From Methyloversatilis thermotolerans (GTDB lineage Bacteria > Pseudomonadota > Gammaproteobacteria > Burkholderiales > Rhodocyclaceae), in NCBI RefSeq assembly GCF_000372885.1, contig NZ_KB889967.1:558001-622000 (forward strand): a DNA stretch of 64,000 nt. The letters are read 5' to 3'. How positions within the stretch are numbered: the first letter of the stretch is position 1; every line of letters starts with the position of its first letter. Below are positions 16,714-45,464 of this stretch, one piece after another. A program made the position numbers and the translations under genes. The notes under the pieces are model-generated. The model made no database searches. It saw nothing but the letters and a program-made list of their open reading frames with translations, and was not told the origin of the DNA.

Positions 16714-17181
16714 ATGTTCCATCATTCCATGCGGATGCTGCTCGTCGCAGCATCCGTCTCTACCTCTGCCTGGGCGGCCGATCCCGCGGATCCGGCCGCC
16801 CCCACGCGACCAGTCGATCACCGCTCGGTGTTCGACAGCTACCGCGCCACTGGCGCTGCAACGGTCGGCAACTGGCGCGATGCCAACGACGCAGTCGGTC
16901 GCCAGACCGGCGGACACGGGCACGACCACGGCAGTAGAGCGACCCTGTCGTCCGACCCGCATGCCGGTCATGACCCCGCCGAGCAAGCGGCGGCCGATGC
17001 GCACGCCGGCCACGGTGCTGCCGGCGGCGACGCGAAGCCGCACCATTGTCCGCATCACGCTGCCCACCATGAATCGATGCACGGGCACGAGCGGGGCGGC
17101 GGTTCACAGGCGATGAAGTCGCACCACGGACACGACTGCCATCACGGCGACGAGGAGGGCGGCGATGCGCACAAGCACTGA
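16714..17181 (+). CDS. His-rich periplasmic protein, probable copper-binding
   Basis: 155 residues with a signal peptide (MFHHSMRMLLVAASVSTSAWA; ATG at 16732 would also fit). The mature protein is dominated by HGHDHG, HAGH and HHGHDCHH clusters, which suggest metal chelation. No conserved catalytic domain is seen. It lies between the CopL-like gene and the efflux protein and overlaps the latter's start by 17 bp. A role as a periplasmic copper buffer or chaperone is inferred from composition and context. Confidence 0.7.
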   Translation: MFHHSMRMLLVAASVSTSAWAADPADPAAPTRPVDHRSVFDSYRATGAATVGNWRDANDAVGRQTGGHGHDHGSRATLSSDPHAGHDPAEQAAADAHAGHGAAGGDAKPHHCPHHAAHHESMHGHERGGGSQAMKSHHGHDCHHGDEEGGDAHKH

Positions 17182-18598
17182 TCATGGCCGGCTCAGGCTC
17201 GTGCCGCTGGCGGCGGCGGTCGCGCTGCTGGCCGGATGCGCCAGCTTCAGCCCGGACGGCGGTTTCGGCACGGTCGAACGGACCGCACGCGACGCGCTGG
17301 GCAAAGAGGTCCGATGGGCGCGCAGCGACGAGGACCGCAAGGCGGTGGCCGACCGCGTTGCCGAATTGCTGGCGCAGCCGCTGTCGGCGGACGACGCGGT
17401 ACAGCTCGCGCTGCTGAACAATCGCGGCCTGCAGGCGGGTTTCCACGAACTGGGCATTCGCGAGGCCGATGTGGTGCGCGCGGGCCGCCTGCCCAATCCG
17501 ACCTTGTCGATGTTCCACGCCAGCAAGCGCGAAGACGGCGGGCGCGACTACAAGATCGAGCAGGCGATCACCTTCAACATCTTTTCGCTGCTGACGATGC
17601 CGCAGGCGGTCGAGGTGAATCGCCGCGTCTTCGAACAGTCACAGCGCGCGGTATCGCTGCAGGTGCTGCGTCTGGCAGCGGATGTGCGCCGCGCCTGGGT
17701 GCAGGCGGTCTCTGCCGGCGAAACGCTGCGCTACATGAAACAGGTGATGGAGGCCGCCGACGCAGGCGCCGAGCTTGCCCGGCGCATGCGCACCGCCGGC
17801 AACTACAGCGCACTGGCACAGGCACGGGAGCAGGGCTTCCACGCCGATGCGGCGCTGAATCTGGCGCGCGCACAACAGGCGCACACTGCGGCGCGCGAGC
17901 GGCTGACCCGCCTGCTGGGCCTGTGGGGCGAACAGACCGCGTTCCGACTGCCCGACCGACTGCCCGAACTGCCCGCGGCCGCGCTCGACGCTCCGGACAT
18001 CGAGCGCCAGGCCATGAGTTCGCGCATCGACCTGCAGATCGCGAAACTCGACGCAGAAGCGACCGCGCGCGATCTCGGGCTGACGAAGACCACCCGTTTC
18101 ATCGACGTGCTCGAGTTCGGTCCGGCGCGCGTGCTGGAAGGACGGCGCGGCGAGTCGTACAAGAAGGGCTACGAGATCAGTTTCGAACTTCCTCTGTTCG
18201 ACTGGGGCGGCTCGCGCGTCGCGCGGGCCGAGGCCATCTACATGCAGTCGGTCGAGCGGGCCGCCGAAGCGGCAGTGAACGCCCGCTCCGAGGTACGCGA
18301 AGCGTACGCGGGCTATCGCATGGCCTTCGACATCGCGCGCCATTACCGCGACGAGGTGGTGCCGCTCAGGAAGCGCATTTCCGATGAAAACCTGCTGCGC
18401 TACAACGGCATGCTGATCGGCGTGTTCGAACTGCTGGCCGACGCCCGCGCTCAGGTGGCCGGTGTGAATGGTTACATCGAGGCGCTGCGCGATTTCTGGA
18501 TCGCCCAGGCGGATCTCGACATGGCGCTGGTCGGTCGCCCCGATCTGGCGCCCGCACCGGGCGCCGCAATGGCCACCGCCTCTGGCGCAGAGCACTGA
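17165..18598 (+). CDS. TolC family outer-membrane efflux lipoprotein
   Basis: 477 residues with a lipoprotein signal ending LLAGC (lipidated Cys25). The two OEP repeats of a TolC/CusC-like channel follow (QLALLNNRGLQAGFHELGIREADVVRAGRLPNP; EVREAYAGYRMAFDIARHYRDEVVPLRKRI). No RND pump or membrane-fusion protein is nearby, so it may pair with a distant pump or serve the oxidase system. It overlaps the His-rich gene upstream and precedes the multicopper oxidase by 5 bp. Confidence 0.88.
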   Translation: MRTSTDHGRLRLVPLAAAVALLAGCASFSPDGGFGTVERTARDALGKEVRWARSDEDRKAVADRVAELLAQPLSADDAVQLALLNNRGLQAGFHELGIREADVVRAGRLPNPTLSMFHASKREDGGRDYKIEQAITFNIFSLLTMPQAVEVNRRVFEQSQRAVSLQVLRLAADVRRAWVQAVSAGETLRYMKQVMEAADAGAELARRMRTAGNYSALAQAREQGFHADAALNLARAQQAHTAARERLTRLLGLWGEQTAFRLPDRLPELPAAALDAPDIERQAMSSRIDLQIAKLDAEATARDLGLTKTTRFIDVLEFGPARVLEGRRGESYKKGYEISFELPLFDWGGSRVARAEAIYMQSVERAAEAAVNARSEVREAYAGYRMAFDIARHYRDEVVPLRKRISDENLLRYNGMLIGVFELLADARAQVAGVNGYIEALRDFWIAQADLDMALVGRPDLAPAPGAAMATASGAEH

Positions 18599-18603
18599 AC
18601 AGG

Positions 18604-20037
18604 ATGAGCGAAATGACTTCCCGCAGAGATTTTTTCCGCAATGCAGGCATCGCTGGTGCCGCTGTGGCCAGCGCGGCCGTGAGCCGTGTGGCGCTGGCGG
18701 CGATTCCGGAGCCGGTGGTCGAGACGACCGCCGACACGCGCGGCCCGCTGGTTCCGCCGACCGGTCGCCCGTACAACCCGGTGGTGACGCTGAATGGCTG
18801 GACGCTGCCCTGGCGCATGAAGGACGGCGTCAAGGAATTCCACCTGGTGGCCGAGCCGGTGGTGCGCGAAATGGCGCCCGGCTTCAAGGTCCACTTGTGG
18901 GGCTACAACGGCCAGTCGCCGGGGCCGACCATCGAAGTGGTCGAAGGCGACCGCGTGCGTATCTACGTCACCAACAGGCTGCCTGAGCGCACCAGCGTGC
19001 ACTGGCATGGCCAGCGCCTGCCCAATGGCATGGATGGCGTGAGCGGGCTGACCCAGCCGGCGATACCGCCGGGCAAGACCTTCGTGTACGAATTCGTCGC
19101 ACGCCGGCCCGGCACCTTCATGTACCACCCGCACGCCGACGAAATGACGCAGATGGCCATGGGCATGATGGGATTCTGGGTCACTCACCCGAAGGGCCGT
19201 CACCCGCTGATCGCACCGGTGGACCGCGACTATGTGTTCCTGCTCAACGCCTACGACATCGACCCAGGCAGCTATACGCCGAAAACCATGACCATGCTGG
19301 ATTTCAACCTGTGGTCCTGGAACAGCCGGGTGTTTCCCGGCATCGCGCCACTGGTGGCACGCCAGGGCGACCGCGTGCGCATCCGCATCGGCAATCTCAC
19401 CATGACCAATCATCCGATACACATTCATGGCCACGAGTTCGAGGTGACCGGCACCGATGGCGGTCCGGTACCGAAAGGTGCGCGCTGGCCGGAGGTAACG
19501 ACCGACATCGCGGTCGGACAGATGCGGCAGATCGAATTCATCGCCGATGAGGAGGGCGACTGGGCCATGCACTGCCACAAGAGCCACCACACGATGAATG
19601 CGATGGGACATGACGTGCCCAACCTGATCGGCGTAGACCAGCGCGGGCTGGCAGAACGCATCGCCGATCTCGTGCCGGGCTATATGGCCATGGGCAGCCA
19701 GGGCATGGCCGACATGGCCGACATGAAGATGCCGCTGCCCGAGAACACGCTGCCCATGATGACCGGCGACGGTCCGTTCGGGCCGCTCGAGATGGGCGGC
19801 ATGTTCTCGGTGCTCAAGGTAAGGCGCGGGCAGAAGGCTGACGACTACACCGATCCCGGCTGGTTCGATCATCCACCGGGTACGGTAGCGTCCGAAGTCG
19901 ACGGCTCCCGGGTGCCACCGGCATCGTCACCTGCGGCGGACTCGCCGACTTCGTCCGGCGAGGCGCACGGATCGGATGCAGAAGGGGTTGAAGTCCATGT
20001 GCGTCGCCCGGGCGTGGGCGGTCACGGGCAGCACTGA
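18604..20037 (+). CDS. Multicopper oxidase, copper-resistance type
   Basis: 477-residue exported cuproprotein, expected to oxidise Cu(I) to Cu(II) in the periplasm. A twin-arginine signal SRRDFF is at 6-11. Copper ligands are visible as HWHG (about 134), HPHADEM, HPIHIHGHEF (about 270) and HCHKSHH (about 322), covering type 1 to 3 sites. A Met-rich stretch (MGSQGMADMADMKMP) lies near the C-terminus, as in CueO/CopA-like oxidases. ATG 18613 is an alternative start. It is the last gene of the copper operon, with a strong hairpin just beyond its stop. Confidence 0.92.
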   Translation: MSEMTSRRDFFRNAGIAGAAVASAAVSRVALAAIPEPVVETTADTRGPLVPPTGRPYNPVVTLNGWTLPWRMKDGVKEFHLVAEPVVREMAPGFKVHLWGYNGQSPGPTIEVVEGDRVRIYVTNRLPERTSVHWHGQRLPNGMDGVSGLTQPAIPPGKTFVYEFVARRPGTFMYHPHADEMTQMAMGMMGFWVTHPKGRHPLIAPVDRDYVFLLNAYDIDPGSYTPKTMTMLDFNLWSWNSRVFPGIAPLVARQGDRVRIRIGNLTMTNHPIHIHGHEFEVTGTDGGPVPKGARWPEVTTDIAVGQMRQIEFIADEEGDWAMHCHKSHHTMNAMGHDVPNLIGVDQRGLAERIADLVPGYMAMGSQGMADMADMKMPLPENTLPMMTGDGPFGPLEMGGMFSVLKVRRGQKADDYTDPGWFDHPPGTVASEVDGSRVPPASSPAADSPTSSGEAHGSDAEGVEVHVRRPGVGGHGQH

Positions 20038-20069: not shown

Positions 20070-20672
20070 TCAACGTGCGGTGTGGTAGAGCCAGCCGAAC
20101 ATGAGCAGGCCGCTGGCGGCAATCCAGCTTCCAGCCACCCGCACCGCGATGCGTTGCCATCCGGGAACCAGTGCGTTCACCTGCGAGGACAACAGGAGCA
20201 CCAGCACGGCGACCGCGCATACGGCGCCGATCAGGCCCTGCGTGCCTATGCCCGACGGCGTCATGGTCGGGCCGTTGGCCAGACCGTGCAGCAGACCCGC
20301 CGCGATGGCGATGGCGATGATGGCCGCATCGCGCAGCCGCGCGTCCAGAGCCACCAGGGCACCGGTCAGCGCGAAGGTCGCCGTGGTGAGCACAACGAGT
20401 TGCGACGGCAGCGGCGACCAGCGCGCGCCCATCAGTCCGCCGGCCAGCCAGGCCAGTGGAAGTGCGATCACCGCGAACCGGGTGGCGCGACTGCCGCGCT
20501 GTCCGGCGAGCAGCCCCACCGCCAGGGCCACCAGAAGGTCTTCAGGGGTGATGAGCACATGGGCGATGCCATCGTAGAAGTCGCCGAAGCCGGTGCTGGC
20601 CAGGTGGGCTTGTGCCGGCGCGGCGAAAAGCGCAAGGGCGAAGGCGATGACAGCGGGCGCGCTTCGCCTCAC
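20070..20672 (-). CDS. HupE/UreJ-like membrane protein (third of three)
   Basis: 200 residues from a GTG start whose bases overlap the upstream gene's stop (GTGA), the same coupling seen along this operon. A signal peptide (VIAFALALFAAPAQAHLAS) is followed by about six hydrophobic helices. HVLITPEDLLVALAVGLLAGQRG and GLLHGLANGPTM echo the His-containing helices of HupE/UreJ metal transporters, but the first motif has PED in place of the usual GxDH. Transport of nickel or a related metal is a family-level inference. It is the last gene of the minus-strand cluster. Confidence 0.72.
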   Translation of the reverse strand: MRRSAPAVIAFALALFAAPAQAHLASTGFGDFYDGIAHVLITPEDLLVALAVGLLAGQRGSRATRFAVIALPLAWLAGGLMGARWSPLPSQLVVLTTATFALTGALVALDARLRDAAIIAIAIAAGLLHGLANGPTMTPSGIGTQGLIGAVCAVAVLVLLLSSQVNALVPGWQRIAVRVAGSWIAASGLLMFGWLYHTAR

Positions 20673-21265
20673 GCGAGCGCCTTCCACATGAAGAACAGGC
20701 CCGCCAGCGCAACGCCGCCGCCGGCGGCGCGCACAGCCCGCCGCCCCGCGCTCCAGCCGTGCAGCGTGCCGAGCGCGATGCCCACCGCGTGCAGCAGGCC
20801 GGTGGACATGACGAAGCCCAGGCTGTACATCAATGCGCTCGCGCCCTCGGGCAGTTCGGCACCGTGCGCATGGCCGTGGAAGATCGCGAACAGTGCGGTA
20901 ATGACGACGGCCGCCCTGAGTGGCAAGCGTCTTTCGGTCATCACCATGGCACCGAGTACGATGGCCGATGCGGCAATGCCGATCTCGACGCCGGGCAGCG
21001 GAAATCCGAGCAGGCCCATCAGGCCGCCCATCGCCATCATCAGCGGAAACGCGACCGGCAGCATCCAGATGGCGGGTTGTCCCAGCACCGCGCCCCACAG
21101 GCCGACGGCCACCATGGCCAGCATGTGGTCGAGGCCCGATACCGGATGTTCCAGGCCGGCCAGGAAGCCGGCCGCCTGGCCCGCCTCCTGGTGGGCGAAT
21201 GCGGCGGCGGGCAGCAAGAGCATCAGCAGGGCGCCGGGAAGGGTGAACGGTGTGCGCGGTTTCAT
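20669..21265 (-). CDS. HupE/UreJ family protein (second of three)
   Basis: 198 residues with the classic HupE pattern: signal peptide ending AFAHQEAG, then HPVSGLDHMLAMVAVGLWGA, and a later IFHGHAHGAELP. Six to seven hydrophobic helices. HupE proteins carry Ni(II) to hydrogenase or urease systems; neither enzyme is encoded in this window, so the cargo is open. The start ATG at 21265 overlaps the preceding stop by 4 bp and its own stop overlaps the next start by 4 bp. Confidence 0.88.
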   Translation of the reverse strand: MKPRTPFTLPGALLMLLLPAAAFAHQEAGQAAGFLAGLEHPVSGLDHMLAMVAVGLWGAVLGQPAIWMLPVAFPLMMAMGGLMGLLGFPLPGVEIGIAASAIVLGAMVMTERRLPLRAAVVITALFAIFHGHAHGAELPEGASALMYSLGFVMSTGLLHAVGIALGTLHGWSAGRRAVRAAGGGVALAGLFFMWKALA

Positions 21266-22242
21266 GTGACGACTTTCAGGAGGATGGCGATACGCTGCAG
21301 TGTCCAGAAGGCGCCGAGCGCGCCCACGACATAGCCGGGAAAACGCTGCAGCGCCATGTTGCGATCCAGTGCCAGCAGGCGGATCGCGCGGGCGACCAGC
21401 AGTATGCCGACAACGAAGCCCAGTTGTCCGATTTCCACTCCCACGTTGAACATGAGCAGGGCGAGCGGGATGTCCTTCTCCGGCAAGCCGATCTGCGCCA
21501 GACCGCTGGCGAAGCCGAAGCCGTGCAGCAGGCCGAAGGCGAACGCCACCAGCCATGGATTGCGTATGGTGAAGCTGCTGTCGCCGCGCCAGCTTCGCGC
21601 CACCTCCAGCCCAAGGAAAAGTATCGACAGGGCGATGCTGGCATTGAGCGGGGCGGCAGCGACATGCACCACGCCGAAGGTGGCCGCCGCGAGTGTGATG
21701 CTGTGGGCGATCGTGAAGGCGGTGATGGTCTTCACCAGGGTCCACCGGTTGGCGACCAGCAGCAACAGTCCGAGCACGAACAGAAGATGGTCGACACCGA
21801 GCAGGATGTGTTCGATGCCCAGATAGACGTATGAAGCGATACCTTCGGCATGGTCCTGGCCGGATCCGCCCAGTCGCGCCGTGGGTTGCGCGGAGCTGAT
21901 GGTGTAGACCCTGAACGGGGCCTCCAGCCAGTACACCTTGATCAGCGCCGCCGAGTAGGTCTGGCCTATGCCTTCTATCGTGAGCTTGCCGCGCAGTCCT
22001 TCCCGGCCGCACTTCAGCACGTTGCCGTCGGCCGCGCAGCTTTCCGGCCACTTCGGCGTCAGTTCCTGGGCGACCGGCACATTGCCGCTGGCGGTCCATT
22101 GCCAGACGAAGTCGGTGGGCGAGAGCTGGCGTATCTCCATCTCGGCGATGCTCAGCTCGTGTGCGGATGCACCGCCAAACAGCATGAGCATGACCAGGGC
22201 CAGCAGAGCGCGCACCGGGGACGGAAGGCGATGCGGCTTCAT
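21262..22242 (-). CDS. HupE/UreJ family protein with periplasmic N-terminal domain (first of three)
   Basis: 326 residues. After the signal peptide (LLALVMLMLFGGASAHELS) comes a ~110-residue soluble domain with two Cys (ESCAADGNVLKCG), then a six-helix membrane domain of HupE_UreJ_2 type: GIEHILLGVDHLLFVLGLLLL, FTIAHSITLAAATFG, GLLHGFGFASGL. The His-rich helices suggest metal handling. The N-terminal domain could receive metal or interact with an exported partner. It overlaps the parvulin-like gene upstream (ATGA) and the next HupE gene downstream. Confidence 0.85.
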   Translation of the reverse strand: MKPHRLPSPVRALLALVMLMLFGGASAHELSIAEMEIRQLSPTDFVWQWTASGNVPVAQELTPKWPESCAADGNVLKCGREGLRGKLTIEGIGQTYSAALIKVYWLEAPFRVYTISSAQPTARLGGSGQDHAEGIASYVYLGIEHILLGVDHLLFVLGLLLLVANRWTLVKTITAFTIAHSITLAAATFGVVHVAAAPLNASIALSILFLGLEVARSWRGDSSFTIRNPWLVAFAFGLLHGFGFASGLAQIGLPEKDIPLALLMFNVGVEIGQLGFVVGILLVARAIRLLALDRNMALQRFPGYVVGALGAFWTLQRIAILLKVVT

Positions 22243-23117
22243 TCCTTGCGGCCCGTTTCATACTTGATGTTGTATTTGCGCGCCTGGTTGCGTACTGCGG
22301 CGGTGCGCTGTTCGGCCATCGTCTGGTCGGTCCAGTCCTGCAGTATCACGCCGCGCAGCGCGTCGTAATCCGCGGGCCGCGCCGGCGTCTGCGCGATCAG
22401 GCGTATCGCGCGCCAGCCTTCCTTGGCCGGCAGGGCGACCCACTCCTCCCGTGGCGCTTTCTTCAGCGCTGCGGCGAAGTCCTCGCCGTAGCTCTGCACC
22501 ACCGTGGGTTCGGGGCGCGCCTTGAACACCCTCAGTCCAGCCTGTGCATCGCCCGGCGTGCCTGCATTCAGGGCGCGCACGAAGGCACGCACCGCGGCTT
22601 CCCCGTTGTCGCCGGCGAGCACCGCTTCCTGGAAGTCGTAGCGCGCCGGTTCTTCGTACTTGTCACGCCGCGCCTCGAACCAGGTGCGCAAGGTCTGGTC
22701 GTCATAGGGCGGCAGCTTGACGCTGGCCTCGATGATGCTGAGCGCCTTGAATATGACCCGATCCCGTATGGCTTCGTCGCCGCGATCCACCTGCAGCGCC
22801 AGACCTTCGCGGTACAGCACTTCATTGTCGACCCAGCGCTGGCGCAGTGCCGACAGTTCCTGCTCGGTGGGCGGACGACCGCGCGAAGCCTGGAAGATGT
22901 CTATCGCATGCTGGTCGACCTTGGCGTCCACGACGATGGTGTGCGGATCGTAGGCCTTGCCGGACAGTGCGTGATCGATGGCGAACAGCAGTGCGCCGAG
23001 CACGAGGAAGTGCAGCAGTGGATCGCGCAGCCATGCCGGAAGGCCGCCGCGGGAGGAAGAGGGAGCGGCAACAGCAGGGGAGTCGGATTGGGGGGCGGAC
23101 AGGGACATTCTCATCAT
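22239..23117 (-). CDS. Membrane-anchored peptidylprolyl isomerase-like protein (PpiC/SurA type)
   Basis: About 292 residues with a single N-terminal transmembrane segment (PLLHFLVLGALLFAI) and a periplasmic part resembling the SurA/PpiC N-domain (RPPTEQELSALRQRWVDNEVLYREGLAL) followed by a degenerate parvulin-like region. It would assist folding of exported proteins. ATGs at 23117, 23114 and 23108 are all possible and no ribosome site decides; a TTG further upstream is less likely. Its stop overlaps the first HupE/UreJ gene by 4 bp, so the two are translationally coupled. Confidence 0.75.
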   Translation of the reverse strand: MMRMSLSAPQSDSPAVAAPSSSRGGLPAWLRDPLLHFLVLGALLFAIDHALSGKAYDPHTIVVDAKVDQHAIDIFQASRGRPPTEQELSALRQRWVDNEVLYREGLALQVDRGDEAIRDRVIFKALSIIEASVKLPPYDDQTLRTWFEARRDKYEEPARYDFQEAVLAGDNGEAAVRAFVRALNAGTPGDAQAGLRVFKARPEPTVVQSYGEDFAAALKKAPREEWVALPAKEGWRAIRLIAQTPARPADYDALRGVILQDWTDQTMAEQRTAAVRNQARKYNIKYETGRKE

Positions 23118-23164
23118 CGGTGATCGCACGGACCGGGTGCGACGCAAGGAGCGTTAACAACGAA

Positions 23165-23193
23165 GGGACGCCGTGCAAGGTGCACGGCGTCCC
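23165..23193 (-). terminator. 13-bp perfect hairpin between PEP-CTERM and parvulin-like genes
   Basis: GGGACGCCGTGCA, loop of 3, TGCACGGCGTCCC. On the minus strand it follows the PEP-CTERM stop and is trailed by TTCGTTGTT. It could be a terminator, an attenuator or an mRNA-stabilising element within a longer transcript. Confidence 0.55.
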
Positions 23194-23220
23194 GATCACG
23201 GCTTTGGCAGTCGCGGGCTA

Positions 23221-23820
23221 TCAGGCCTGCTTGCGGCTCATGCGACGGGCACCGTAGGCCACGCCGGCCAGACCCAGCGACAGCAGCAGGGCCTGGCTGG
23301 GTTCCGGCACCGCCGTGATGGTCAGGTTGTCGAAGCCGGCACCTTCGGCGTTGGCGAAGGTGATGGAGTGGGCCACGCCATTGAAGGCGTTGGACGCGAA
23401 GTTCCAGTTGCAGTAGGCGGAGTCGCTGCAGCCGTAGGTGGCGTTGTCCACCAGCGCGAAGGCGGCCAGCAGATCGCCGGTGCCATCGAGGCCGGAATAG
23501 ATGTTCACGATGGCGAAGCTGGTGGTGGAGTACCAGAACGACGCGGCGGTGAAACCGGTGGCGAAGTTCATGGTGGCATCTGCGCCAACCACGGTCATGA
23601 CGCCGGTGGGCGACGGCGAATTGGAATAGTAGGGGCCGAGTTCGTCGTTCTGCAGGGCCAGAATGTCCAGACCGAAGGACACGCCCAGCGAATCGGCGTA
23701 GAAGTCGCCGATCGACGCGAAGCTGGTCGGTTCGTCGAAATCGACGACGACATCGGCGGCGAAGGCGGGGGCGCTGGCGAACAGGCCGGCGGCGAGAAGA
23801 GTGGCCAGATTCAGATTCAT
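23221..23820 (-). CDS. PEP-CTERM sorting domain-containing protein 1
   Basis: 199 residues with an N-terminal signal peptide (LATLLAAGLFASAPAFA) and a C-terminal PEP-CTERM tail: VPEPSQALLLSLGLAGVAYGARR, i.e. Pro-Glu-Pro, a hydrophobic helix and a basic end. The tail is the exosortase sorting signal for export to the cell surface. The middle has a beta-rich VDFDEPTSF...SLGVSFG pattern and two Cys; no catalytic domain is seen. It lies 66 bp after the DUF3604 gene, with a hairpin between them, and before the parvulin-like gene. Confidence 0.9.
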   Translation of the reverse strand: MNLNLATLLAAGLFASAPAFAADVVVDFDEPTSFASIGDFYADSLGVSFGLDILALQNDELGPYYSNSPSPTGVMTVVGADATMNFATGFTAASFWYSTTSFAIVNIYSGLDGTGDLLAAFALVDNATYGCSDSAYCNWNFASNAFNGVAHSITFANAEGAGFDNLTITAVPEPSQALLLSLGLAGVAYGARRMSRKQA

Positions 23821-23849
23821 TTCGATACTCCTGTTTTCAACGGATCAAT

Positions 23850-23879
23850 GGATGCGCCGCCGGTTGGGGCGGCGCATCC
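23850..23879 (-). repeat. 12-bp perfect hairpin between DUF3604 and PEP-CTERM genes
   Basis: GGATGCGCCGCC, loop of 6, GGCGGCGCATCC. It starts 8 bp beyond the DUF3604 stop. On the minus strand there is no T run after it, so an intercistronic stability or processing element is as likely as termination. Confidence 0.5.
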
Positions 23880-23886
23880 TGCTTCC

Positions 23887-26103
23887 TTACTTCACACCGG
23901 CGACCTGGGTCGAATTGGCAACCTCGATGAAGATCGGGTTGCTGTAGAACCACAGGTCAGCCCAGGCGGCCACGTCGTATGCCACCATCTTCTGGCCATT
24001 CACGACCGGCAGATGGTTCGGGCAACCGTCGATCTTGGTCATCGACGCCGTGTGGGTCACGTCGTTGCCCGGCACATTGCTGCCGCTTGCCTTGCACGGG
24101 ATGGACAGCGGGGCGATGGCGCGGTTGTTGCTGCCGGCATTGGTATAGACGTCGGCCAGCGGATTGCCCTTGTCGTCGGTTTCGTACGGCACGCCGGCGG
24201 GCAGGTTGCTGCCGCGCAGACGGATGTACTGCGATGCCGCCACGGCCGGGATGCGGAACACCATGGACTTGTATTCCGGATTGCCGGCGACCGATGCCCA
24301 GGTACCGTCGTTGAAGGTCTTGATGACGGCTGCCGTGGTGTTCTTGGCGGCGGCCGGCACGCGGGCCATGTCGGCGTTCTCGACCCAGTCATCCGGCCAG
24401 GCACCGGCGTAGTCGGCGCTGGCGGGCTGCTTGTAACCGGTCACCATGCCGCGGATCACGTCGACATGATCCAGTTCCGGCGCATTCATCGGCTGGGTGA
24501 TGCCGACCTGGGCCAACGACGGGTTGGGGAAGGAGTAGGGCGAGTAATTCGTGCCGGACGGATCGCGCACGACGATGGCGACCACGATTTCGGCACCCGG
24601 GCGAACGCTCAGCTTTTCACCCATGGTGGCGCAACCGGCGACATCGGTATCGGTATTGGCCATCGCGGCATTCAGAGCGAGGCGTTCCACAGATGCGTTG
24701 GTACGGGCAGCGAGACCCTTGTACGAGGCGCACGCCACGAAGCCCAGACGGTCGATCAACTGACCGGAACTGGCGAAGCTGTTGCCGCTGCGCAGGCCGT
24801 CCACGATGGCTTGCGGGCGCACCTTGTCGCTGCCATTGCGCACCATCACGAAATCGCGCTGGTATTCGCCCGGGTAGAAGTCCTGGGTCGAACGCACGTC
24901 GTGGGTACCGAAGCTGCCGCGGTTGTGCCAGTCGGAGCTGGCGAAGAACCACCAGTTGCGACCTTCGCCCAGCAGCGCATCCCACACGCCGCCGATCTGC
25001 GCCGCGTAGACACCGGTACCGCCCCAGGTCGTGCCGCCGACCGAATCCCAGCGCTTGCCACCGAAATTGTTGCGATCCGGGTAGTACTCGCCGCGGTCGC
25101 TGGATGCGCCGTGACCCGGCTGGCTTTCGAAACCGAAAGCGACCCGGGGCGCGGCATTGTTGAAATTGCGCAGGTGTTCGATGTTGAAGCCGTTGCTGCC
25201 GCTCGGATTGAACGGACCGGCACGCTCCAGGTGGGCCGGTACGTAGTAGCTGGCATTCGGATGGTACTTGGCCATCCACTTCACGCCTTCCACCGTCTTC
25301 AGGTGACCGGCTTCGCCACTGTTGTTGGTGAGCTTGGCGGCGGTTGCGTTCCAGTTGGCATCGGCGGCGTTCAGGCTGCCCGGCACCGAACAATCCCAGC
25401 TCTGGCCGGCGCCACGGCTGTTGTCGCTGTCGTTGCGGTCGAAGCAGTAGGACCATTGAGCCAGCGCTGCGGCATTGCCCAGCGGGGTGTAGCCCGGGCC
25501 GGTCGGCAGGCCGGCATGGTCGATTTCGGCCGGCAACTGACCGGTAATCACACTCATCGAGGTGTGCTCGTGACCGGACACGACCGATTCCATGCCCATG
25601 AATACCGGCACGCCCTTCAGTGCGGTGAGGTATTCGGCGATCGGGTAGGAAATTTCCTGGATGGACTGCCAGCGCCACATCGACGGATTCGACTGGCTGC
25701 TCAGAGGCGTGCCATTCGACGCATTGCCCTTGACGGCGGCGGCGCCGATGCTGTTTGCCCAGGTCGTGGTCGGGCCCTTGCCCTCGACGACCGGGTAGGC
25801 CGGCGTGGCGACGGATTCGTCTTCGACCAGCGAGCAGTTGCGGTTGCCATTACCGCCGTGACCGGCCTGGACGAACCAGTCCAGACCCCACGGGGTATCG
25901 ACCTTGTCGGTGGACTTCTTCACCAGCATCTGCATCGAGATCGAGCCATCGGAGCAGGTCGTATGGTTGTGGAAGTCACCGGTCACATAGGTGCCGGCGG
26001 TCTTGCCGGCGCTGGCAACGCCAGGCGCCATGCTCACGGCGACGGCACTGATTGCCATGGCCACGGCCGAGGCAACCGGCGTCATCTTGGTGTTGAACAT
26101 CAT
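23887..26103 (-). CDS. DUF3604 domain-containing exported protein, PHP-like metal-site motifs
   Basis: 738 residues from ATG 26103, chosen for the AAGGA site about 9 bp upstream and the signal peptide beginning there (AMAISAVAVSMAPGVASA). The mature N-terminus TGDFHNHTTCSDGS is a PHP-type metal-binding motif (HxH...D), and the protein is full-length for DUF3604, a family without a proven reaction. HEHTSM, SSDWHNRGSFGTHD and GEDGRNWW-like segments supply further candidate ligands. A metal-dependent (phospho)hydrolase acting outside the cytoplasm is the likely class. It heads the cluster containing a PEP-CTERM protein, a folding helper and three HupE/UreJ-type genes. Confidence 0.85.
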   Translation of the reverse strand: MMFNTKMTPVASAVAMAISAVAVSMAPGVASAGKTAGTYVTGDFHNHTTCSDGSISMQMLVKKSTDKVDTPWGLDWFVQAGHGGNGNRNCSLVEDESVATPAYPVVEGKGPTTTWANSIGAAAVKGNASNGTPLSSQSNPSMWRWQSIQEISYPIAEYLTALKGVPVFMGMESVVSGHEHTSMSVITGQLPAEIDHAGLPTGPGYTPLGNAAALAQWSYCFDRNDSDNSRGAGQSWDCSVPGSLNAADANWNATAAKLTNNSGEAGHLKTVEGVKWMAKYHPNASYYVPAHLERAGPFNPSGSNGFNIEHLRNFNNAAPRVAFGFESQPGHGASSDRGEYYPDRNNFGGKRWDSVGGTTWGGTGVYAAQIGGVWDALLGEGRNWWFFASSDWHNRGSFGTHDVRSTQDFYPGEYQRDFVMVRNGSDKVRPQAIVDGLRSGNSFASSGQLIDRLGFVACASYKGLAARTNASVERLALNAAMANTDTDVAGCATMGEKLSVRPGAEIVVAIVVRDPSGTNYSPYSFPNPSLAQVGITQPMNAPELDHVDVIRGMVTGYKQPASADYAGAWPDDWVENADMARVPAAAKNTTAAVIKTFNDGTWASVAGNPEYKSMVFRIPAVAASQYIRLRGSNLPAGVPYETDDKGNPLADVYTNAGSNNRAIAPLSIPCKASGSNVPGNDVTHTASMTKIDGCPNHLPVVNGQKMVAYDVAAWADLWFYSNPIFIEVANSTQVAGVK

Positions 26104-26302
26104 GTCGGAGGGTCCTTTCAGGAGATGCGAAGGAATAGCTATTGGTCTTGGTCCGGGGCAGGGCCAGCCCTCCGACATTCTCGGGACGCAACGTGACCTT
26201 CCTGTTTCAAGGAGATTAAATGCAAGCGCGCGCAACCATGGGCATGGACTACCCACGGGTGTGCACGCTGCCGCGATGGCCCCTGGCGGGGCTTCGCATG
26301 TA

Positions 26303-26596
26303 TCAGCCCAGCGGTGTCTGTCGCCCGCCGTGCTGCCGGGGATCGTGATGCGGACGACCGTGCGCCGCGTCGGCATCCTGTCCCGGCTTCACCTGCCCGT
26401 GCGCGTTCGCCGCGCCGCAGGCCGGCGCAGCATCGGTCCGGACTCCGCAGTGGTCGTCCGGCTGCGCGAGCAGCGCCGGAGCGATGTGAGGATCGGGGTG
26501 GACGCCTTCATGCGCGAGTGCCCACGACGCAGCAAGTGCAACAGAAAGCAGGGCCGCGACGCGGGTGATTCGACCGGAAACCGGAGGATTGGACAT
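26303..26596 (-). CDS. Small His-rich exported protein
   Basis: 97 residues from ATG 26596, supported by a strong AAGGAG site 8 bp upstream. A signal peptide (RVAALLSVALAASWALA) precedes a short mature chain rich in His, Asp and Pro (HEGVHPDPH, GRPHHDP) with two Cys. No known domain. Composition and its position about 200 bp upstream of the DUF3604 gene, on the same strand, suggest metal binding linked to the HupE/UreJ cluster. Function otherwise unknown. Confidence 0.6.
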   Translation of the reverse strand: MSNPPVSGRITRVAALLSVALAASWALAHEGVHPDPHIAPALLAQPDDHCGVRTDAAPACGAANAHGQVKPGQDADAAHGRPHHDPRQHGGRQTPLG

Positions 26597-26926
26597 CAAA
26601 AAACTCCTTCTGTACAAGGGCTTGGCATGAGATCCATGCCCAATCCTTAAAGAGATTTCACACTCAATAATGAATGTTCAACACGCGCTTATTTTTTGTT
26701 CACACGAACTTTAGTCAGCATCCGTGATGATTTGATGACATCGTTGCAGTTCGCTTCCCGCACGTGCCGGCCTTTTTCATTGAACTGTCACGCACGCCGC
26801 GTACGCTCGCGCGTCTGGCAGGAAGCGGCTCAAGCCGCCACTTTACTTGCGCGACGGATGCAGTGCCGCCGTTTCTGCCCGGGTCCGCTACGTCTCCCGC
26901 TTCCCACGATCACCTCCTCAACGCCC
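26597..26926. other. Divergent intergenic region, AT-rich
   Basis: 330 bp between the minus-strand metal cluster and the 2OG oxygenase. Bases 26640-26740 are unusually AT-rich for this window and must hold the minus-strand promoter; the best guess there is TTGAAC with a poor AAATCT 17 bp on. A Pho-box-like repeat facing right is listed separately. No gene is seen. Confidence 0.5.
26774..26791 (+). promoter_or_regulatory. Candidate Pho box upstream of the 2OG oxygenase
   Basis: TTTTCAT-TGAA-CTGTCAC: two 7-mers separated by 4 bp matching the PhoB consensus at 12 of 14 positions. TACGCT lies 10 bp downstream as a possible -10. It is 135 bp before the ATG, so this is tentative. Confidence 0.35.
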
Positions 26927-27553
26927 ATGCAAAGCGAAGTTTTCGGCCTGTTTCCCATTCCCGTCATGCGTATCGCGGGCGCCCTCGATCCGGCTCTGGT
27001 CGGCGGACTGGTCGAACACTTCACCGTCCAGGCACAGCAGGCGAACAACACTTCGCCCAATCTGACGCATACCGCCATGCTGCATCCCGGGGACAGTCCT
27101 CTGCTGGTGGAGGCCGCGCAGCAGCTCACCCCGCGGGTGTCGGAATTCGGCGCGCTGCTGTTCGGCGAACAGATGGGCTGGTCGCTCAAGGAAATGTGGG
27201 TGAACGTGATGGATCACGGCGGATACCAGGCGATGCACAACCACGCGAACAGCTTCATTTCGGGCGTGGTCTATCTCACGCCCATCCATCCGGATTCGCG
27301 CACGGTATTCATGAAGTCGCCGGGCGGCACCGAGTTTTCGTTCAAGAACGACCACAAGGGCATCGCCGTCGGACCCTACAACGCAGAGCGCTGGATCAGC
27401 CCCCAGCCCGAACCGGGCGACCTGGTCCTGTTTCCCAGCTATCTGATGCACGCCGTTCCGCACAACACCGCCGGACGGCGCATCACCATGCCCTTCAACG
27501 CGATCCCGGCCAGCCTCGATTCCTGGGGCTACCGGATCGGCTTCAGCGGCTGA
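26927..27553 (+). CDS. 2OG-Fe(II) oxygenase family protein (TIGR02466-like)
   Basis: 208 residues beginning MQSEVFGLFPIPVMRI, the usual start of the TIGR02466/2OG-FeII_Oxy_5 family, which fixes the ATG despite a weak ribosome site. Candidate iron ligands are in YQAMHNHANSFISGVVYL and LFPSYLMHAVPHN, and the 2-oxoglutarate-binding arginine in GRRITMPFNA. The substrate is unknown; the family contains putative hydroxylases. It is cytoplasmic. The next gene starts 1 bp after its stop, so the two form an operon. Confidence 0.85.
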   Translation: MQSEVFGLFPIPVMRIAGALDPALVGGLVEHFTVQAQQANNTSPNLTHTAMLHPGDSPLLVEAAQQLTPRVSEFGALLFGEQMGWSLKEMWVNVMDHGGYQAMHNHANSFISGVVYLTPIHPDSRTVFMKSPGGTEFSFKNDHKGIAVGPYNAERWISPQPEPGDLVLFPSYLMHAVPHNTAGRRITMPFNAIPASLDSWGYRIGFSG

Positions 27554-27554
27554 C

Positions 27555-30191
27555 GTGTCGAACGTCGGCCAAGGCGTGGGTGGAGCGTCATCCGCCCGGT
27601 TCCGGCTGTCCCTGCCCTGGAGCATGGCGCTGGTACTCATGGTGGCGTCCGGTTTCGCGGCGCTCGGTTACCAGATCGTGTGGACCCAGCAGAGCGCGCT
27701 CTGGCTCGGCCATGAGGCCGCGGCCGTGCTGGCGGTCGTAGCCGCCTTTTTCGGCGGACTGGCGGTCGGTGCCCTGGCGCTCGGTCCGCGCGTCGACCGC
27801 AGTGCGCACCCGCGCCTGTGGTATGCCGCATGCGAATCGCTCATCGGCCTGTGGAGTCTGGCGCTCGCCTTCGCGCTGGAACCGCTGGCTGGCGCACTGC
27901 TGCAGTTCATCGGCCCGCAGCCCGCGCCCGTCTGGCACTGGAGCGTGGCCTTCGGCGGTACCTTCCTGCTGCTGCTGCCGGCAACCGCGGCGATGGGCGC
28001 CACGCTGCCCGCCATGGAACGCGCACTGGCGCGTCTGACCGACGGCGGCACGCCGATCGCCGCGCTGTACGCCGGAAACACCTTCGGTGCCCTGCTCGGC
28101 GTGCTGGGCAGCGCCTTCTGGCTTTTGCCCCGGTACGGTCTCGGTGCCACCGCGGGCATCTGCGCCGCGCTCAATCTGGGCTGCGCAGTGATCGCCTGGA
28201 AGCTTTTTCCGCGCACCTCGGCCGGCATATCGCCGGAGCGCGTTCCGGTCGCAATGGAGGACGCACCAAAGGTGTTGCGCCTGCTCGCCGCTACCGGGCT
28301 GCTGGGCATCGCCTATGAAGTGCTGGTGGTGCGCGTGCTCAGCCAGGTTGCCGAGAACACGGTCTATACCTTTGCCATCCTGCTTGCCGTCTATCTGGTC
28401 GGCACCGCGCTCGGCGCCACCCTCTATGCCGGCCGGCGACATCGCTTTGACCGGGGCGACGGATTGCGCGACACGCTGTGCCTGATCCTGGCGTGGGCCT
28501 GCCTGGCGGGCATCCTCGCCCTGACCGCGGCCCCGGCCGTCAAGGGGTGGCTGCTCGCCGCGCTGGGTGCCAGCCTGGCGAGCGCGCTGGTCGCCGAAGC
28601 TGCTCTGGCGTTGGGCGCCTTCCTGCTGCCCACGATGGCGATGGGCGTGCTGTTCAGCCACCTGGCGACCCAGGGCCGGCTGGCCGGCGTCGGCTTCGGT
28701 CGTGCGCTGGGGGTCAATACCCTGGGCGCGGCGCTCGCGCCGCTGCTGTTCGGCGTCCTGCTGGTGCCTGCGCTCGGCCCCGGGCTAGCCCTGCTGCTGG
28801 TCGTGCTCGGCTATCTGCTGCTGTCCTCGCCGGCGGTGCGACGCCGGCCCGGATTCTGGGCGCCGGTGGTTGCCGCCGCGGCGCTCACGCTCTGGATGCC
28901 TTCGCTCGCCTTCGTTGCCGTTCCGCCCGGCGGCCGGCTCCTGAGTCATGCTGAGGGCGTACTCGCCACGGTGAGCGTGATCGAGGATGCCCAGGGCGTT
29001 GCGACGCTGCACATCAACAACCGGCAACAGGAGGGCAGCAGCGCCACCCGCCTTGCGGATGCGCGTCAGGCCCTGTTGCCGATACTGCTTCATCCGGCGC
29101 CGGCGCGCGCGCTCTTCCTCGGCCTGGGAACCGGCGTGACCGCGTCCGCCGCCGCGCAGGACAGCCATCTGCAGGTCGATGTGGCGGAACTGCTGCCCGA
29201 GGTGATCGCCGCCTCGCCGCGCTTCACCCATGGTCTGTGGGGACAGGGCACGGTGCCGCGCATGCATGTCATGGCGGCCGACGCACGGCGCTTCGTGCGG
29301 GCCGGCAGCGAGCGCTACGACGTGATCGTGTCCGACAACTTCCATCCGGCGCGCAGCGGTTCCGGTGCGCTGTACACGGTCGAGCACTTCCGCGCCGTGC
29401 AGGCGCGACTCACGCCGGATGGCGTGTTCTGCCAGTGGCTGCCTCTGCATCAGCTCGATCTCGACACCTTGCGCAGCGTCGTGCGCGCCTTCCTTGCGGT
29501 CTATCCGCAGGGCTGGGCCATGCTGGCCACCAACAGTCTGGAAACGCCGACGCTGGGTCTGGTCGCACGCGGCGACGGCGGCCACCTGGAACTCGATCAG
29601 GTGCGTCGGCGGCTGGCCACGGCAGCGCTGCCCTTCACACCGGCGGAATTCGACATCGACGACGAATTCGCGCTCCTTGGCACCTTCATTGCCGGCCCGC
29701 AGGCGCTGTCGGCATTCGCCGGCGACGCACCGGTGAACACCGACGACCATCCGGTCGTCATCTACAGCGCACCGCGCATCACCTACCAGCCGGATTCCCT
29801 GCCGCGTGACCGGCTGGTCAGCCTGCTCGACGCGACACATATCGACGTGGACGAACTGCTGCGAGGGGCACCGGATCCGGCCTGGCGCAGCCGCCTGGCC
29901 GCCTACTGGTCGGCGCGCGATCGCTACATCGCGCTGGGCCGCAGCGTGCGACCCAGCGCGGATGTGCGACAGATGCTGGCACAGGTGCGCGGGCCGCTGC
30001 TGGACATCTTGCGCACCAGCCCGGATTTCCGGCCGGCCTACGATCCGCTGTTGCGCATGTCGCTCGCGCTGGCGCGGACCGATGCCGCTGCAGCGCGCGC
30101 GCTGCTGCAGGATCTGCTTCAGGTGCAACCCGCCCGGAGCGAAGCGGCGGAAGCGATCCGGCTGCTGGATGCCGGCGCGCAAAATCGGTGA
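27555..30191 (+). CDS. Fused MFS-like / spermidine synthase-like protein
   Basis: 878 residues. The first ~460 form about twelve hydrophobic helices of a transporter-like region (WSMALVLMVASGFAALGYQIVWTQ). Residues ~490-720 form a Rossmann aminopropyltransferase-like domain (FLGLGTGVTASAAAQ, VDVAELLPEVIAAS, DNFHPARSGSGALYTVEHF). A helical tail of ~150 residues follows. Such fusions are common in bacteria and their polyamine role is unproven. The start is GTG 27555, one base after the oxygenase stop; ATG 27624 is an alternative but would trim the first helix's flank. Confidence 0.85.
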   Translation: MSNVGQGVGGASSARFRLSLPWSMALVLMVASGFAALGYQIVWTQQSALWLGHEAAAVLAVVAAFFGGLAVGALALGPRVDRSAHPRLWYAACESLIGLWSLALAFALEPLAGALLQFIGPQPAPVWHWSVAFGGTFLLLLPATAAMGATLPAMERALARLTDGGTPIAALYAGNTFGALLGVLGSAFWLLPRYGLGATAGICAALNLGCAVIAWKLFPRTSAGISPERVPVAMEDAPKVLRLLAATGLLGIAYEVLVVRVLSQVAENTVYTFAILLAVYLVGTALGATLYAGRRHRFDRGDGLRDTLCLILAWACLAGILALTAAPAVKGWLLAALGASLASALVAEAALALGAFLLPTMAMGVLFSHLATQGRLAGVGFGRALGVNTLGAALAPLLFGVLLVPALGPGLALLLVVLGYLLLSSPAVRRRPGFWAPVVAAAALTLWMPSLAFVAVPPGGRLLSHAEGVLATVSVIEDAQGVATLHINNRQQEGSSATRLADARQALLPILLHPAPARALFLGLGTGVTASAAAQDSHLQVDVAELLPEVIAASPRFTHGLWGQGTVPRMHVMAADARRFVRAGSERYDVIVSDNFHPARSGSGALYTVEHFRAVQARLTPDGVFCQWLPLHQLDLDTLRSVVRAFLAVYPQGWAMLATNSLETPTLGLVARGDGGHLELDQVRRRLATAALPFTPAEFDIDDEFALLGTFIAGPQALSAFAGDAPVNTDDHPVVIYSAPRITYQPDSLPRDRLVSLLDATHIDVDELLRGAPDPAWRSRLAAYWSARDRYIALGRSVRPSADVRQMLAQVRGPLLDILRTSPDFRPAYDPLLRMSLALARTDAAAARALLQDLLQVQPARSEAAEAIRLLDAGAQNR

Positions 30192-43047: not shown

Positions 43048-43626
43048 TCAGCGCCAGATGCGACGGGCGGCGCTGACACCGATCATGCCCAGTCCGGCGA
43101 GCATCATCATCCATTCGCGCGGTTCGGGCACTGCGGGCGTGATGGCCAGATTCAGGCTGAAGCGGTCGCCGGCACTCGCATTGGCGAACACCAGCGTCCA
43201 GTCGGTCAGGCCGTCCTCGACGAAGGGATTGCCGATGTACAGCTCGGTCACCCTGCCCTGGCCGAACAGGTTTCCGGTCAGCAGATCGCCATCGGCCGTG
43301 GCGGCGCGCAGCGAACCGGGGATCAGCTCGAAGGCGGCGCCACTGAAGGAGTAGCTCACGCCGGCAATGCCCAGGCCGGCAACTTCGCGGATCACGCCAT
43401 TCACATCGACGCTGCCGCGCGCGATATCTTCCGCTTCGATCACGAAATCGAAGCTCACCGGCAGGCTGTTCTGCAGGGTGAGGTCGAGCGCGAACAGCGT
43501 GTCCGTGCTCAGCGAGGTGTCGATCAGATTGCCGTTGAGCACGCTGCTGTCCAGACGCAGTGCGTGCGCCGGTGCGGCGAACGCCGCAGCCGCCAGCGCG
43601 GCGAGCAGCATCTTCTTCATCTTCAT
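43048..43626 (-). CDS. PEP-CTERM sorting domain-containing protein 3
   Basis: 192 residues from ATG 43626, which has GGAG 8 bp upstream and begins the signal peptide MKMKKMLLAALAAAAFAAPAHA-like stretch. The tail VPEPREWMMMLAGLGMIGVSAARR is a PEP-CTERM exosortase signal; it has Met-rich hydrophobic residues. The core is beta-rich (SVLNGNLIDTSLSTDTLFALDL) with no known enzyme motif and no Cys. It is divergent from the PhoD-like phosphatase; the shared 161-bp intergenic region holds a Pho box. Confidence 0.9.
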   Translation of the reverse strand: MKMKKMLLAALAAAAFAAPAHALRLDSSVLNGNLIDTSLSTDTLFALDLTLQNSLPVSFDFVIEAEDIARGSVDVNGVIREVAGLGIAGVSYSFSGAAFELIPGSLRAATADGDLLTGNLFGQGRVTELYIGNPFVEDGLTDWTLVFANASAGDRFSLNLAITPAVPEPREWMMMLAGLGMIGVSAARRIWR

Positions 43627-43721
43627 GGTGCGGACTCCTGAAAGGCATGTTGCATTGCCGCGGACGATAGGCCGCCCGTGTGACATGCACGTGTCACCTC
43701 TTCGCATATCCATTCAAGATT

Positions 43722-43739
43722 CCGTCATCGGACTGTCAC
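43722..43739 (+). promoter_or_regulatory. Pho box upstream of the PhoD-like phosphatase
   Basis: CCGTCAT-CGGA-CTGTCAC matches the PhoB direct-repeat consensus at 13 of 14 half-site positions with the correct 4-bp spacer. It is 48 bp before the ATG. A second dyad, GTGACA-N6-TGTCAC, lies about 25 bp upstream (near 43679-43696) and could serve the divergent gene. Confidence 0.7.
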
Positions 43740-43787
43740 CGGCACTGCCCACACTGCGCGCCAGCCCCCTCAAGCCGGAGAGTTCCG

Positions 43788-45464
43788 ATGTCCCGCAATG
43801 TGTTTTCCCGTCGCGATTTCATGCGTACGGTCGGCGCAGGCGCGCTGGCCGGTTCCGCCGTCGTCCGCTCGGCCAGTGCGCTGGCCGCGAGCGACAGCCT
43901 GTTCCAGCACGGTGTGGCCAGCGGCGATCCGCTGTCCGATCGCGTCATCATCTGGACCCGTGTGTCGCCGAGCCGGGCCGGCATGATGGCGGTCATGTGG
44001 GAAGTGGCGCTGGACGAGCGCTTCAGCCGCATCATCCGGCGCGGACGCGTGCTCACCGGCGAGGACATCGACTACACGGTGAAGGCCGATGTGCTGGGTC
44101 TGCCGGCAGCGGCCCGCCTGTTCTACCGCTTCCGCGCCGACAACCAGCTCTCGCCGGTCGGACGCACGCGCACGCTGCCCGCCGGTGCGATCGATCAGGT
44201 CCGCCTCGCGGTGTTCTCCTGTTCCAACTATCCGGCCGGTTACTTCAATGTGTATGCCGAGGCGGCCAAGCTCGATGTGCACGCCGCCATCCACCTGGGC
44301 GACTACATCTACGAATATCCGCGCGGCGGTTACGCCTCGGGCGACGCGGCGGCCATGGGCCGGCTGTCGCAGCCGGAAGGCGAAATCCTGACGCTGGAAG
44401 ACTATCGCACCCGTCACGCCCAGTACCGCACCGACCCCGACCTGCAGGCGCTGCATGCGGCGATGCCGGTGATCGCGGTATGGGACGATCACGAGGTGGC
44501 GAACGATGCCTGGCGCGAGGGTGCCGAGAACCACAGCGAAGGCGTGGAAGGCGCTTTCGCGGACCGTCGCGCCGCCGCCATCCGTGCCTATCACGAGTGG
44601 ATGCCGACCCGCGTGTCCGACCCGTCGCGTCCGGACCGCATCTACCGCAGCTTCCGCTTCGGCAACCTGCTGTCGCTGCACATGCTCGACACGCGAATCA
44701 TCGGTCGCGATCAGCAGATGGATTACGCGAACTACTTCGGTGCGAGCGGTTTCGACACGGCGCGCTTTGCAGGGGATCTGGCCGACCCCAACCGCAGCCT
44801 GCTCGGCGCGGAACAGCAGGACTGGCTCGGCGTGCAACTGGCGAAGTCCGACACCTTGTGGGATGTGCTGGGACAGCAGGTGCTGATGGGCCGCATGAAC
44901 ATTCCGGCGCCGCTGGTGCTCGGCCAGATCGGCTTCAGCGCCTACAGCGCGCTGGTGGTGAAGGCGCAGACCGCGCCTGCCACGCTGACCGCACAGGAAC
45001 AGGCCATCCTCGCGCAGCCGGCCATCCCGTACAACCTGGATGCCTGGGACGGCTATGCCGTGGCGCGCGAACAGGTGCTGGGTGCCGCGCGCGCGCTCGA
45101 CAAGAACCTGGTCGTGCTGGCAGGCGATACGCACAACGCGTGGGCCAGCGATCTGGCCGATTTCGCCGGTCGCGCGGTCGGCGTGGAATTCGCGACGCCG
45201 GCGGTCAGTTCGCCGGGTCTGGAAGAGTATTTCCCGAGCGAAAGCCCGGCCGCGGTGGCCGCCGGCCTGACCCAGATCATCGGCCCGCTGCAGTACGCCG
45301 ATACCGCCCGTCGCGGCTTCATGCTGGTGACGGCGACGCCGGATGCCTGCCGCGCGGAATGGCGCTATGTGAGCACGGTGAAGAGCCGCAGCTATGTACT
45401 GCAGCAGGGCCCGGCGCTCAAGGTGCTGCCGGGCGCGGGCAACCGCAAGCTGCTGCCGGCCTGA
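43788..45464 (+). CDS. PhoD-like alkaline phosphatase/phosphodiesterase
   Basis: 558 residues from ATG 43788, chosen for GGAG upstream and the twin-arginine signal SRRDFMRTVG beginning there. The family pattern is complete: FQHGVASGDPLSDRVIIWTRV, FSCSNYPAGYFNVY, HLGDYIYEY, VWDDHEVANDAWREG and LAGDTHNAWASDL carry the metal ligands. PhoD enzymes are Tat-exported Ca/Fe phosphodiesterases that attack phosphate diesters and teichoic-like polymers. A Pho box precedes the gene, so phosphate starvation should induce it. Confidence 0.94.
   Translation: MSRNVFSRRDFMRTVGAGALAGSAVVRSASALAASDSLFQHGVASGDPLSDRVIIWTRVSPSRAGMMAVMWEVALDERFSRIIRRGRVLTGEDIDYTVKADVLGLPAAARLFYRFRADNQLSPVGRTRTLPAGAIDQVRLAVFSCSNYPAGYFNVYAEAAKLDVHAAIHLGDYIYEYPRGGYASGDAAAMGRLSQPEGEILTLEDYRTRHAQYRTDPDLQALHAAMPVIAVWDDHEVANDAWREGAENHSEGVEGAFADRRAAAIRAYHEWMPTRVSDPSRPDRIYRSFRFGNLLSLHMLDTRIIGRDQQMDYANYFGASGFDTARFAGDLADPNRSLLGAEQQDWLGVQLAKSDTLWDVLGQQVLMGRMNIPAPLVLGQIGFSAYSALVVKAQTAPATLTAQEQAILAQPAIPYNLDAWDGYAVAREQVLGAARALDKNLVVLAGDTHNAWASDLADFAGRAVGVEFATPAVSSPGLEEYFPSESPAAVAAGLTQIIGPLQYADTARRGFMLVTATPDACRAEWRYVSTVKSRSYVLQQGPALKVLPGAGNRKLLPA

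Follow-up and report, generated by a model that had tools for sequence, protein, structure and literature searches.

PhoD, a phosphatase of the Pho regulon, and PhoX are exported, metal-dependent enzymes whose folds are unrelated to PHP, and we know of no partner genes for either that encode a parvulin-like protein and a HupE membrane protein. PHP phosphoesterases, HupE proteins and Pho boxes are all of known kinds; their combination was not found in the literature searched. In the PMC literature searched, PF13795, PF12228 and HupE/UreJ (in two spellings) lead to no paper, and DUF3604 only to a table row of a paper on Chlamydia mutants. The subject of what follows is such a combination in Methyloversatilis thermotolerans, on a stretch of 64,000 nucleotides (contig NZ_KB889967.1, positions 558,001 to 622,000; "the window") in which a gene for an exported PHP-fold metallohydrolase of 738 amino acids (minus strand, 23887..26103) stands among genes for envelope proteins. 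A preliminary description of the window had read these genes as a candidate metal-linked export system and had missed their regulation: Pho-type boxes in the promoters point to phosphate, rather than metal supply, as the purpose of the module. On balance we think it probable that this is a Pho-regulon module for the use of organic phosphorus outside the cytoplasm.

The PHP gene is followed on its own strand by genes for a membrane-anchored parvulin-like (Rotamase_2) protein (PPI; 22239..23114; Pfam Rotamase_2 39.9 bits, cut-off 27) and a HupE_UreJ_2 membrane protein with an N-terminal extra-membrane domain (HUP3; 21262..22242; Pfam 154.9 bits). Divergent from them on the plus strand lie genes for a 2-oxoglutarate (2OG)-Fe(II) oxygenase (2OG-FeII_Oxy_5; 26927..27553, its start set by comparison with relatives; Pfam 78.2 bits) and a fused membrane protein of the major facilitator superfamily (MFS) and spermidine-synthase-like kinds (SpdSyn; 27555..30191; NCBIfam NF037959 75.6 bits, cut-off 40). 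Together these genes are a conserved unit. Related stretches were sought in one genome per species, and among the best 80 of the 180 obtained (to judge by their record titles, mainly Burkholderiales and Steroidobacter-like bacteria) tblastn finds PPI in 79, HupE_UreJ_2 in 75, 2OG in 74 and SpdSyn in 73. Each of the 46 loci that extend about 10 kb to either side has both PPI and HupE_UreJ_2. PPI precedes HupE_UreJ_2 in 75 of the 75 loci that hold both, the commonest gap between them in the open reading frame (ORF) calls being a 4-base overlap (37 of 64). Of the 69 loci with both 2OG and SpdSyn, 66 have the two genes side by side on one strand, and the pair takes three placements: divergent upstream (31), downstream (26) and same-strand upstream (9). 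Constancy of membership under rearranged placement argues for a functional link. The preliminary description had confined the cluster to seven minus-strand genes and so left out this divergent pair, which is nearly as constant as PPI and HupE_UreJ_2 and whose oxygenase is a core member. Clustering of the neighbouring ORFs finds the same six families most frequent, followed by a PCuAC-like family (33 of 81 loci). At the level of the order, a full-length PHP gene occurs in 6 of 150 genomes; a close 2OG relative is present in all six as against 1 of the 144 others, and a close HUP3 relative in all six as against 2 of 144. Farther off in the phylum, eight distant PHP relatives (8 genomes besides that of M. 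thermotolerans, of 299) lie in 19-kb stretches without a match to the partner genes of the window; L016-L023 are exported PHP relatives of this kind, and the L018 stretch has a phytase gene. L172 has a 2OG oxygenase that shares 53% identity with that of the window, in a stretch without PHP or PPI-HupE whose contig ends 6 kb on.

A promoter element is the other feature that many loci of the module share. Upstream of PHP the recurrent words are CGTCACGCC-AGG-GTCACG ... CTAGCATC. In 43 of 77 loci the coding strand repeats GTCA at an 11-bp period, against 0 to 4 for other periods, 3 for the opposite strand and a background of 2.1. (These counts cover 77 of 81 sequences, the 80 loci and the window; the other four have no recognisable motif anchor or lie on a contig that starts within 300 bases.) When all 256 four-letter words are taken at seven periods, GTCA at 11 comes out best (42 of 77 within 250 bp), the next unrelated word reaching 12. 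In the consensus a TAnnnT element lies 11 bases past the repeat, and box and -10 element stand together in 39 of 77. The published Pho box (PMC3333781) consists of two CTGTCAT repeats with a 4-bp spacer and an 11-bp period; the 43 loci share its period and its GTCA core. Judged by sequence, the promoter element of the module looks like a mark of phosphate-starvation control. PhoB is encoded in all six module genomes tested, and the same element is found at known Pho genes: together with its -10 before phoB of M. thermotolerans and of G430 (a version that differs by one letter precedes phoB of G359), before the window's own PhoD gene, and before pstS in G359 and G401. A matrix trained on 42 PHP sites, whose hits at PHP are accordingly not independent, marks 10 of 53 PEP-CTERM, 9 of 33 PCuAC and 4 of 61 2OG genes as against 8 of 483 others; PPI genes are marked in 4 of 69. 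Sigma-54 sites upstream of PHP number 1 in 77. A seemingly enriched palindrome, CTGCA-N8-TGCAG, was rejected as a regulatory candidate: it stands some 190 to 220 bases upstream in loci with a PCuAC gene and, so far as can be judged, inside the reading frame of that gene. In G359 the module is about 15 kb from the pst genes, with a GT4 glycosyltransferase and a DUF3419 gene between, presumably for phosphorus-sparing lipid synthesis.

In the window, the Pho-box-like promoter of the module (minus strand, 26708..26739) reads GTCAT-N6-ATCAC, then 10 bases, then the -10-like TAAAGT, about 110 bases before the start of a gene for a small His-rich protein; it is the sole window match to the box-plus-(-10) rule once that rule is widened to admit the ATCA half. 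The plain pattern without the -10 has 2 matches where 1.04 are expected, so that weight comes from position and not from number. Matrix hits of at least 10 number four, against 0.2 in random sequence: PhoD (17.2), 2OG (11.2), PHP (10.7, one half weak) and a site near tRNA genes (10.1, no link). Further scores are 9.2 before the gene divergent from PhoD, 8.0 at 26739 and 8.0 at 30536 (unlinked). The top score belongs to a second Pho-box-like site (plus strand, 43724..43755) just before a PhoD-like alkaline phosphatase gene (plus strand, 43788..45464; Pfam PhoD 373.9 bits), which lies outside the module and is probably co-regulated with it; 17.2 is reached anywhere in 2 of 60 random windows. The phosphatase and the divergent gene share a region with two Pho-box-like sites (43048-45464); the C-terminus of the divergent gene's product is PEP-CTERM-like by eye, and Pfam finds no match in it. 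Genome-wide, a pattern that had been widened until both sites of the window fitted has five matches (reversed control, 0): the module, PhoD, a fatty-acid hydroxylase gene (Pfam), phoB and one site inside opposite-strand reading frames. The hydroxylase-superfamily gene (L219:1541-2443), just downstream of its match, possibly encodes a phosphate-starvation lipid hydroxylase.

The PHP protein itself has a signal-like N-terminus and the HNHTTCSDG motif that the preliminary description had pointed out. H45, H47, D52, D75, H82, E172, H178, H180, H291, D391 and H393 are invariant in the 35 of 81 sequences that were aligned, all of which carry the superfamily pattern HxH ... H ... E ... H ... DxH; by this motif we take the conserved residues to be metal ligands. 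Predicted models have the PHP barrel fold and match PHP structures, the top matches being mostly annotated phosphoesterases, and the C-terminal domain is probably immunoglobulin-like. Plain Foldseek gives no significant match for either model, and a PDB sequence search only a chance match. Identity to PHP phosphoesterases of solved structure (3e38, 2anu, 7rty PsfC, 3e0f, PolC) is 11 to 19%, and the module protein is set apart from them by its export, by long insertions and by an additional C-terminal domain. The window protein matches no Pfam family; the scan of the 35 aligned sequences yields one single match, to a phage tail family (E 0.087). The name DUF3604, given to this protein in the preliminary description, is wrong because Pfam's own DUF3604 model does not match it: neither it nor any of the 35 reaches the PF12228 cut-off of 20.4 bits, its own genome has no match (nor have the control genomes of that scan; the model matches elsewhere), and profile comparison with true DUF3604 yields a probability of 17%, over a C-terminal stretch. 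The best named similarity is to the CehA/McbA metallohydrolases (NF038032; carbaryl hydrolases), a weak likeness that covers the PHP domain's C-terminal part and scores 32.5 bits for the window protein, 37.5, 42.1 and 43.1 bits for three relatives and 57 for a distant one, all below the cut-off of 80.

True DUF3604 proteins, found in 12 of 200 genomes of the phylum, nevertheless bear on the module through their neighbourhoods. The preliminary description had proposed looking for DUF3604 together with HupE/UreJ and parvulin-like genes in a conserved order; the association exists, and the order of the pair is constant in the PHP loci. In 16 stretches taken from ten of these 12 genomes (a fragment in G031 and a weak match in G130 lie outside the 16, and the G162 copy is a remnant), a HUP3 relative is present in 12 and a PPI relative in 11. 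Like the module, these neighbourhoods in other Pseudomonadota combine a PHP-type protein that has the HxH motif and a signal-like N-terminus with the same PPI and HupE_UreJ_2 pair, and nine metal-type residues of HUP3 (H145, D151, H152, H180, E213, H240, N266, E270, Q273) are identical in 38 PHP-linked and 11 DUF3604-linked proteins. HX5DH, which we take to be the HupE motif, is present in all 49 of these HUP3-type sequences, and the Pfam HupE/UreJ match holds. (The alignments comprise 38 of 81 HUP3 and 58 of 81 PPI sequences, over-long ORF calls excluded.) Unlike the module, they have a PHP protein of another family, no 2OG, SpdSyn or PEP-CTERM relative among the listed ORFs (window queries), and a PPI with a difference: the C-terminal parvulin His, presumably catalytic, is kept in 9 of 9 DUF3604-linked copies, whereas in PHP-linked copies it is Arg in 47 of 58, kept in 9 and a gap in 2. 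The first parvulin His is also absent from the window PPI, by eye. The PHP-linked PPI retains the Rotamase_2 domain of the parvulin-type isomerase originally supposed but is probably non-catalytic. In L171, a locus picked for its HUP3, DUF3604 is accompanied by a HUP3 54% identical to the window's and then by a HupE_UreJ gene, as in the window, with no PPI among the ORFs listed. HupE_UreJ_2-like genes also occur away from any nearby DUF3604 gene (L176, L177), so that this gene alone does not predict the module. L156 and L160 are DUF3604-PPI-HupE modules that adjoin sulfatase genes. Because the order of the pair is conserved and the DUF3604 neighbourhoods are alike, it is reasonable to read PPI and HupE as a pair that serves an exported metalloenzyme of PHP type; the earlier proposal that the membrane proteins and the isomerase serve a surface enzyme survives in this form, but with an enzyme that is not DUF3604.

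A number of observations weigh against phosphate control. TGTCA-N6-TGTCA, the form of the box in E. coli, is rare (2 of 77 loci), the base before GTCA being mostly C in PHP loci; 19 of 77, the window included, show no repeat, however loosely defined, within 250 bp of PHP; and the window's own box is one letter off, has a modest matrix score, and precedes the gene of the His-rich protein, some 620 bp away from PHP. SpdSyn (0 of 73) and HUP3 (1 of 75) have no matrix-marked sites of their own to speak of. In the six module genomes the clean element is found at only 2 of 6 phoB and 2 of 6 pstS promoters, the one-letter-off third phoB excluded, and of the genome-wide matches only phoB, the hydroxylase gene and the site within opposite-strand frames are independent of the widening. 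OmpR-family regulators commonly use tandem sites, and a member other than PhoB might recognise the 11-bp direct repeat; the scarcity of clean elements at phoB and pstS and of the TGTCA form would suit it. The element does precede phoB itself and PhoD in the M. thermotolerans genome and phoB in G430, and the published Pho box (PMC3333781) has the same period; we hold another regulator to be distinctly improbable.

The chemistry is open to a similar objection. Weak NCBIfam similarity to carbamate hydrolases leaves room for cleavage of a bond other than a phosphate ester. In DUF3604 modules the box with its -10 is missing from all 19 starts (the repeat alone occurs at two), so that the PPI-HupE pair is not about phosphate as such, and two of these loci, as noted, have sulfatase neighbours. 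The metal role of HUP3, moreover, is presumed from its family. One could accordingly suppose that the PHP protein hydrolyses a non-phosphate ester (carbamate, sulphate or similar) and has been co-opted into the phosphate response in this branch, with PPI-HupE as a unit that matures exported PHP-type enzymes in general. For it speak the CehA/McbA similarity (32 to 43 bits in the family, below the cut-off of 80) and the DUF3604 modules, which lack the box and in two cases adjoin sulfatases. A phosphorus substrate accords better with the Pho-type promoters and with neighbours such as PhoD or phytase, and the top structural matches are mostly annotated phosphoesterases; we consider a non-phosphate substrate quite unlikely.

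The seven minus-strand genes at 20070-26596 run in a single direction, and their coordinates bear out the preliminary description, as do the 4-base overlaps that join the last four (PPI, HUP3, HUP2, HUP1). Its three HupE/UreJ proteins, parvulin and PEP-CTERM protein all score above their Pfam cut-offs, but a three-HupE system is not general: HUP3 is the constant member, and the HupE_UreJ proteins HUP2 (20669..21265; 191.5 bits; 8 of 80 loci) and HUP1 (20070..20672; 63.5 bits; 5 of 80) are optional. The PEP-CTERM surface protein (23221..23820; 21.6 bits, cut-off 20.7) has a relative in 55 of 80 loci. The small His-rich protein (97 amino acids; 26303..26596) is an ORF with a signal-like N-terminus, as had been described, but it matches no Pfam or NCBIfam family above cut-off, its gene has no tblastn match in the 80 loci, and the nearest relative, L024, has no similar ORF. 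A PCuAC-like protein, confirmed by Pfam in the two members scanned, is encoded near PHP in 33 of 81 loci; the G-x-H-x-M pair (His-x-Met), which we take to be the PCu(A)C copper-ligand motif, is kept in none of the 33. Directly after the signal-like region these proteins mostly have Cys; L030 and L061 have His there. Copper-type genes flank the module in the window (16714-20037 and 30579-32996), encoding an outer membrane efflux protein, a multicopper oxidase and, by eye, a CopA-like ATPase.

Such neighbours would suit a metal homeostasis module, a generalised form of the idea in the preliminary description, in which HupE, the PCuAC-like or His-rich protein and the adjacent copper genes would handle a metal, the PHP protein would bind metal or process a metallophore, and 2OG and SpdSyn would make a polyamine-like metal carrier. 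HupE family membership with its invariant HX5DH, the PCuAC fold in 33 of 81 loci and the copper genes at the window copy all speak for it. The multicopper oxidase, however, is present in only 2 of 80 loci, the PCuAC-like proteins have lost the copper pair, and a TonB-receptor family is present in 18 of 81 loci only. Regulation argues in the same sense: with simple forms of the patterns, Zur-, Fur-, CueR-, NikR- and CsoR-like sites upstream of PHP number 0 of 77 and MerR-like sites 3 against a background of 1.3, whereas the 11-bp GTCA repeat is strong. A copper or other metal regulon was rejected on these counts, and metal homeostasis as the purpose of the module seems to us unlikely. A hydrogenase link was likewise discarded: the genome's own NiFe hydrogenase lies elsewhere (C1, about 3.11 Mb, as against 0.58 Mb for the module), with a weak, below-cut-off HupE-like match beside it.

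The phosphate module that we favour might work as follows. Low phosphate would lead PhoB to switch the module on; the exported PHP protein, with metals in its HxH...E...H...DxH pocket, would act in the periplasm or on the cell surface, where it would hydrolyse an organic phosphate ester or diester, and the freed phosphate would be taken up through Pst. The parvulin-like protein may hold the enzyme during folding, HupE_UreJ_2 may move or present the metal that the enzyme needs, and the PEP-CTERM, PCuAC-like or His-rich proteins could assist it at the surface or in the periplasm. The response probably has a second arm in 2OG and SpdSyn, which together would produce or modify a lipid or a small amine compound. 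More tentatively, the pseudo-parvulin and HupE_UreJ_2 may constitute a hitherto undescribed, exchangeable envelope unit for metallation and folding, serving at least two exported PHP-type families (DUF3604 and the module's) and delivering metal to the periplasmic face and not into the cell; in this branch it would have been captured by the phosphate-starvation response together with the second arm, a membrane aminopropyl-type transferase and a 2OG oxygenase yielding a polyamine compound or an amine lipid free of phosphorus.

Record titles place the module in many Pseudomonadota. The phosphate reading gives a testable job to families that have had none: the exported PHP proteins of the module and DUF3604 kinds, HupE_UreJ_2, the degenerate membrane parvulin and the 2OG/MFS-SpdSyn pair. 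If it is true, the bacterial phosphorus cycle would gain a new exported phosphoesterase, unlike PhoA, PhoX and PhoD and with envelope partners of its own.

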